From Nitrososphaeria archaeon (lineage in GTDB: Archaea; Thermoproteota; Nitrososphaeria; Conexivisphaerales; DTJL01), in the NCBI GenBank assembly GCA_029775965.1, contig JARVJU010000009.1, positions 1 through 64,000 of the forward strand: 64,000 bases of DNA. The letters run 5' to 3'. Positions within the stretch are counted from its first letter, which is position 1; each line of letters opens with the position of its first letter. Shown piece by piece: positions 41,606-42,491 of the stretch. The position numbers and the translations under genes were made by a program. The notes under the pieces were generated by a model. That model was not told the origin of the DNA, did not search any database, and saw nothing but the letters and a program-made list of their open reading frames with translations.

Positions 41606-41668
41606 AGCCTGCAGCAATTCCTCCCAAACTCTTTAGAGGCGGGCTTCTTTGTGGCTCTTCCTGTGAGT

Positions 41669-42178
41669 ATGATCTATACTAAGACGGTGATAGATGATGA
41701 AGAGCATTGTATGCGGGTCATGTATGAAATGGAAAAACAGTATACAAATAGGAATGAAGAGTTTTTCATAAAAGTGATAAGAGAGGAACCGAGTCTCGTT
41801 CTAAGGGTTCATGCTGTTACTATACTTGCTGAGCTAGGCACACAGAAGGCTATTGAAGCTCTATCAGACGTTCTTCTAAATGATCCAGACCCTCTGGTGA
41901 GGCATGAAGCAGCTTTCTCCATGGGACAGATAGGATTGCCATCTGCAAACGAAGCCCTAAAGAAGGCTACGCTTAAAGATCCGGATCCAGTAGTTAGACA
42001 TGAATCCGCTGCTGCATTAGGAGCGATAGGAAGTCAGGATTCGAGGGAGACACTGGAAAAGGCACTTGAAGATAAGGATGAAATAGTCAGAAATTCGGCT
42101 ATGACATCTCTCTTTAATTTAAGGTTCCTTCTAAGGTACCCTTCACTGTCTCTACAAAACCTTGCTCCTCGCCCGTAG
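41669..42178 (+). CDS. HEAT-repeat protein resembling half of deoxyhypusine hydroxylase
   Basis: A 169-residue all-helical HEAT protein (PBS-lyase type). Two repeats carry His-Glu motifs: RHEAAFSMGQIG and RHESAAALGAIG, with the His residues 32 apart. Eukaryotic deoxyhypusine hydroxylase has two such domains, each with an HE..GQ motif followed about 33 residues later by an HE..GAIG motif, and its four HE motifs bind two irons. This protein has just one such domain, so a dimer could rebuild the site. A plain scaffolding HEAT protein is the alternative. GTG 41651 is an earlier possible start. The C-terminus (FLLRYPSLSLQNLAPRP) is not repeat-like. Confidence 0.85.
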   Translation: MIYTKTVIDDEEHCMRVMYEMEKQYTNRNEEFFIKVIREEPSLVLRVHAVTILAELGTQKAIEALSDVLLNDPDPLVRHEAAFSMGQIGLPSANEALKKATLKDPDPVVRHESAAALGAIGSQDSRETLEKALEDKDEIVRNSAMTSLFNLRFLLRYPSLSLQNLAPRP

Positions 42179-42217: not shown

Positions 42218-42307
42218 GGGCCGGTAGTTTAGCATGGTAAAATGCTCGCTTCGCATGGGAAAGCCAGAAAGAGCGAGAGTTCACGGGTTCAAGTCCCGTC
42301 CGGTCCA
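42218..42307 (+). tRNA. tRNA-Ala (CGC) with a 16-nt intron
   Basis: Acceptor strands GGGCCGG and CCGGTCC pair with a G3:U70 wobble, the main alanine identity signal. The anticodon stem is CTCGC (42245-42249) with GCGAG (42273-42277), and the anticodon CGC lies at 42252-42254. The T arm is ACGGG-TTCAAGT-CCCGT. Removing 42256-42271, at the standard archaeal position after nucleotide 37, restores a seven-base loop. The discriminator is A and no CCA is encoded. TTAAAT at 42186-42191 fits a promoter about 27-32 bases upstream. Confidence 0.93.
42256..42271 (+). other. tRNA-Ala intron
   Basis: Sixteen bases interrupt the anticodon loop after A37. The intron contains TGG and CCA that can pair around a GAAAG loop, consistent with a minimal splicing-endonuclease substrate. 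I did not establish a full bulge-helix-bulge. Confidence 0.75.
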
Positions 42308-42491
42308 CACATATTATTATTAAAATCAAATTCAAAAAGCATATTTTTATTAGCATTTGACTGTACATTCGATACCGAATCTGCCTCGTCCAAATCTGTT
42401 GGACTAATTCTATAATCGTCAACACTTTTTCATCTGCTCCTCTTAGTGTATGAGAAATTGAATTTTCAACGATAATCTTTGAAATATGATT

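Follow-up and report, generated by a model that had tools for sequence, protein, structure and literature searches.

Deoxyhypusine hydroxylase (DOHH; human enzyme, PDB 4d4z; yeast Lia1) carries out the last step of hypusine formation on a translation factor. It is a symmetrical dyad, whose four-repeat arms jointly form one binuclear iron centre (PMC8153317). The iron is anchored by H56, H89, E90, H207, H240 and E241, and the residues that contact the substrate are E57, E90, E208 and E241 together with two glycines, the one in the N-terminal half being printed as G65 (PMC9117371). In papers published in 2016, 2018 and 2021 no DOHH orthologue was known in archaea (PMC5178350, PMC6105217, PMC8153317). 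Our search of the literature on archaeal DOHH and on hypusine in Nitrosopumilus or Asgard, with subscription papers and preprints outside its scope, found no earlier report of the protein family described here.

The DNA examined, referred to as the window, is a stretch of 64,000 nucleotides from a Nitrososphaeria archaeon (contig JARVJU010000009.1, positions 1 to 64,000). An open reading frame in the ORF list, running from a GTG at 41651 to a stop codon at 42176-42178, had been picked out from the letters alone (the sequence-only reading) as a half-size DOHH-like HEAT protein. The frame is real, but the start proposed there is not the one favoured by the orthologues. When aligned with the window protein, same-family orthologues begin M/V-Y-T, and the likely start is therefore the ATG at 41669 (MIYTK...), giving a product of 169 aa. 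Use of the GTG instead would add 6 residues, and the product is 169-175 aa depending on the start chosen. The AlphaFold model consists of one domain of HEAT hairpins. Pfam matches are to generic HEAT families only. The PBS-lyase HEAT proteins NblB and CpcE/CpcF share the repeat type, and NblB also the size, but the window protein lies far below the cut-offs for those families, the weak NCBIfam match to NblB scoring 54 bits against a cut-off of 300 bits. The features of the gene are listed in Table 1.

Table 1. Features of the single-domain HE-HEAT gene and its predicted product (window positions)
Feature	Position	Strand	Basis
Family A gene, single-domain HE-HEAT protein, 169 aa + stop	41669..42178	+	ORF list; start from orthologue comparison; Pfam HEAT_2 5e-37; AlphaFold pLDDT 91.9, pTM 0.87
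R46, invariant Arg in the repeat preceding the HE repeats	41804..41806	+	Motif RxRA...GG, shared by the DOHH halves and most family A members
H79-E80, first His-Glu pair	41903-41908	+	Invariant in 24 orthologues and 28 representatives; in-register profile alignment to H56-E57 and H207-E208 of human DOHH
F83..G86-Q87, face of first HE helix	41915..41929	+	Residue 83 is F or Y; G86 and Q87 invariant; counterpart Y60..G63-Q64 and Y211..G214-Q215 in DOHH
H111-E112, second His-Glu pair	41999-42004	+	Invariant in 24 orthologues and 28 representatives; in-register profile alignment to H89-E90 and H240-E241 of human DOHH
C-terminal tail APRP	42164..42175	+	Same ending in homologues from f1 and f11; TGG in most of the other families

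Homologues were sought among the window's relatives and in 398 genomes of its phylum, where full-length members were recovered at E <1e-45. This group, designated family A, has members in eight archaeal families, all within one phylum: f1 (that of the window), f7, f9, f10, f11, f24, f39 and f66. Conservation was assessed in 24 orthologues and in 28 representatives that were drawn from all eight archaeal families and share 36-74% identity with the window protein. Residues H79, E80, A81, G86, Q87, V109, R110, H111, E112, A114, A116, G118 and G121 are invariant in both sets. The claim that the His-Glu pairs lie in the contexts seen in DOHH was borne out, as the patterns HExx(F/Y)xxGQ and HExAxALGxIG are found in both proteins. 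In the window protein they read HEAAFSMGQ at H79/E80 and HESAAALGAIG at H111/E112, with the His residues 32 apart, and the corresponding pairs in the profile alignment to human DOHH, H56/H89 and H207/H240, are each 33 apart. HE and GQ are indeed invariant, but the second motif is not fixed as GAIG, the family showing GAIG, GSIG, GVIG and GVVG. The helices that carry the pairs in the model span residues 75-88 and 107-120, and the His occupies the same helix position in both.

In an ordinary PBS-lyase-type HEAT adaptor the HE pairs would be incidental, and the exposed slot after VR would hold variable residues. Such variability is seen in the flanking repeats (positions 47-48 and 141-142), whereas repeats 2 and 3 always have HE there. 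Conservation of the pairs among homologues had been set beforehand as a check, and both are invariant in the representatives of all eight families. Across all six frames of the window, HE-x28-36-HE occurs only once, as the H79/H111 pair. A background set of 33 other HEAT ORFs, some of them overlapping, was taken from other archaeal loci and a few bacterial ones. It contains no HE pair at such spacing, and HE fills the slot in none of its 83 repeat-like segments. Together, the invariance of HE, the variable flanking slots and the empty background indicate that the HE pairs are a selected site and not the product of repeat drift.

The human DOHH sequence, checked against PDB 4d4z, is the best natural match in the PDB to the single window sequence (E 1.2e-16). 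A profile of the family (A1) gives two matches to human DOHH, one to each half, at 61.8 and 58.6 bits, and all four HE pairs align in register. Whole-chain E values are 9.8e-35 with the family profile and 1.9e-39 with a wider profile. With the A1 profile, other natural PDB chains, e.g. Rpn2, score no higher than 45.8 bits, and the maximum among the 33 other HEAT ORFs is 51.7 bits. Alignment of family A to DOHH using hhalign gave a probability of 98.4 (E 6.8e-15), and a Foldseek search with the AlphaFold model ranked human DOHH first among natural PDB folds (TM 0.73, 141 columns), the model thus having the fold of a DOHH arm. Greater similarity to generic PBS-lyase HEAT proteins had also been specified in advance as a point to check, and DOHH proved closer than every natural generic HEAT protein examined.

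Designed consensus HEAT and alphaRep proteins in the PDB outrank DOHH, both by sequence and by fold. Score alone was dropped as proof of kinship with DOHH because the alphaRep designs score higher, and the argument for kinship hence rests on the register and on the site residues. Each iron or substrate residue reported as critical in DOHH is matched by an invariant residue of family A, including the Glu that follows either His (E80 and E112) and the Gly on the first HE helix (G86). The two also share HEAT hairpins with HE pairs in two consecutive repeats per unit, and the Gly-Gln and an aromatic residue on the HE helix. The higher-scoring designs, the purely generic Pfam matches and the NblB score of 54 against 300 bits are what an adaptor with incidental HE pairs has in its favour. 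However, the designs are many-repeat proteins that match HEAT proteins of every kind, while both DOHH halves are matched in register, HE is invariant in eight archaeal families and other HEAT repeats have no HE in the slot. We consider the adaptor explanation highly improbable, and it was rejected on the HE invariance and the background count (0/83).

By sequence comparison, the window protein is a real, conserved, half-size homologue of DOHH, and the assignment of family A as a single-domain DOHH-like family is well supported. The half-size description holds, there being one domain of DOHH-like HEAT repeats where DOHH has two. DOHH is a chain of 302 aa with two fused domains, spacing 33 and four HE pairs, whereas family A, which is archaeal and shares only about 30% identity with the DOHH halves, has one domain, 169 aa, spacing 32 and two HE pairs, and would have four only upon dimerisation. 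No fused two-half form was found among the 398 genomes of the phylum, the strong matches being open frames of ~160-240 aa. By strict membership, which includes the fused two-arm chain, family A is not DOHH, though it very probably works like DOHH.

Since one copy of the window protein corresponds to one DOHH arm, a homodimer would hold the complete residue set. We envisage two copies meeting face to face in a symmetric homodimer that resembles the N/C pseudo-dimer of DOHH, with each iron ligated by H79, H111 and E112 from the same chain, and with E80, E112 and G86 lining a pocket for the aminobutyl side chain of the substrate. O2 would be activated at the diiron centre, yielding a peroxo species, and deoxyhypusine, placed by deoxyhypusine synthase (DHS) on the conserved lysine of aIF5A (SKPGKHGSAK), would be hydroxylated to hypusine. 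That the protein is a dimeric diiron protein is very likely, and we rank this step above the assignment of deoxyhypusine as the substrate. The full statement, a homodimeric diiron hydroxylase acting on the deoxyhypusine of aIF5A, is reasonably probable. The dimer could instead be non-catalytic, acting as a sensor or scaffold that binds iron or O2, with a regulatory metal at the HE pairs. The small size of the protein and its conserved C-terminus (TGG or APRP), through which a partner could be bound, would suit this role, and the peroxo intermediate of DOHH is unusually stable (PMC9117371). Conservation nevertheless reaches beyond the metal ligands to E80, G86 and Q87 on the substrate side, and we regard this alternative as quite improbable.

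DHS was found in 20 of the 20 family A genomes tested and in the window genome, where it retains GGGISKHH. DHS is nearly universal. Each aIF5A read from family A genomes retains the GKHG lysine motif, and the combination found with DOHH, namely DHS and an IF5A with the target lysine in the same genome, is thus present. Most of these archaea contain two DHS-family genes, the canonical one with GGGISKHH and a longer paralogue, often adjacent or convergent. In one f24 genome (G175) the longer paralogue has GGGVPKDF (L068:5032-6066).

In that same genome the canonical DHS gene, the DHS paralogue and the family A gene adjoin, the family A gene being divergent from the paralogue with ~75 bp between them. 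In two f24 genomes of another genus (G075 and G103) the canonical DHS gene is ~5 kb from the family A gene. In the other seven archaeal families the family A gene is not near DHS. A rough estimate puts the chance of such linkage arising somewhere in eight families at ~2% for adjacency and ~10% for a distance within 6 kb, and at this level the linkage in f24 is only suggestive. Gene order was dropped as general proof of a link to DHS, as it is conserved only in f24. In f7, the genes neighbouring family A, read by eye, are HerA/NurA/Mre11/Rad50-like.

The distribution of family A, like that of DOHH, is linked to oxygen, and DHS is the pathway partner of both. In the window's order, family A and a haem-copper oxidase (COX1) are both present in 4/4 f1 genomes and both absent from the 16 others. 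In the phylum sample outside the class, COX1 is present in 8/9 genomes with family A and in 75/315 without it (Fisher p 1e-4), but the genomes are related and the p values for oxygen therefore overstate independence. The assembly of the single family A genome without COX1 (G259) is split into 350 contigs and 81% complete. Some aerobic relatives, in f6 and in f24 genus g76, have COX1 but no family A. Among the nearest relatives, two records are Thaumarchaeota MAGs. A search of genome contigs outside the archaea returned weak generic HEAT matches only, and a search of plasmids gave no match.

Among the genomes searched, family A is confined to some aerobic lineages of the window's phylum. In Sulfolobus acidocaldarius, which is reported to contain hypusine (PMC5178350), DHS was found and HEAT_2 was not matched. 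Hence another enzyme would be needed there, and family A is not a general archaeal solution. Of the suggestion that this is the poorly known archaeal hydroxylase, what survives is a DOHH-like single-domain family, and not an archaea-wide scope. In one f7 genome (G422:C1) the family A gene is in pieces with stops, and another of the same genus (G430) is without the gene, reflecting either sequencing error or loss. One genome of another genus (G003) carries, besides its own orthologue with 61% identity (G003:C8, L083), a gene for a protein identical to that of the window (G003:C19:1958-2479, L003); this contig is probably a contaminant of one bin or the other.

A second HEAT family of ~170 aa, family B, is found in part of f7 and f10 (L089-L097, e.g. 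L089:452-958), and in this sample only alongside family A. It resembles family A in size, in having two invariant HE pairs with spacing 32 (RHEVCYQIAxRN ... VRHEAxECLGI) and in the aromatic residue at the same place, but differs in the absence of Gly-Gln, in its first half and in a weaker match to DOHH (50 and 38 bits). With two HE pairs in family B as well, the HE signature does not necessarily imply a single substrate.

The coexistence of families A and B in some genomes suggests that the scaffold has diversified, raising the question of whether family A is a homodimeric diiron HEAT oxygenase of DOHH-like build with another target, e.g. a protein side chain or a polyamine-derived group. Conserved catalytic residues and an aerobic distribution would suit any O2-using enzyme, and identity to the DOHH halves is just ~30%. 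However, the residues that DOHH uses for its substrate, the second-position Glu and the motif Gly, are conserved too; both DHS and the aIF5A lysine are consistently present, and in f24 the family A gene sits in a cluster with DHS. DOHH is also the sole solved natural relative found with such a site. We consider action on another target unlikely. Action on deoxyhypusine is the reading we prefer, and the sequence evidence makes family A a strong candidate for the archaeal hydroxylase that the literature has called missing.

In a tree that included both halves of DOHH, the N- and C-terminal halves are sisters (support 100/99) and group with families A and B, apart from generic HEAT proteins. The latter split is weak (67/76), with long branches and an unusual composition in DOHH. 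The sister relationship of the halves fits duplication of a single arm, and the tree does not fix the donor. The proposal of a single-domain ancestor is compatible with this topology. A single-domain protein of the family A kind could have given rise to eukaryotic DOHH by gene duplication followed by fusion. The most inclusive version of our reading, in which the missing hydroxylase that forms hypusine in the aerobic archaea of this phylum is family A, working as a homodimer with a symmetric diiron interface and corresponding to eukaryotic DOHH before its fusion, is tentative, and we place it a little below even. If it is true, archaea would gain an enzyme for the deoxyhypusine hydroxylation step, and the family would show a diiron site arising at a homodimer interface and later being fixed by duplication and fusion. 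As the protein is small and found in many genomes of cultivable-looking aerobic lineages, these proposals are directly testable.

The C-terminus of family A is a conserved TGG (often LTGG) in most members and APRP in those from f1 and f11, and this tail may have a functional role, e.g. near the dimer site or with a partner. Upstream of the family A gene in the window are pheS-pheT (read by eye). A tRNA-Ala(CGC) at 42218-42308 lies 40 bases downstream, and its length of 91 nt suggests an intron in the anticodon loop.
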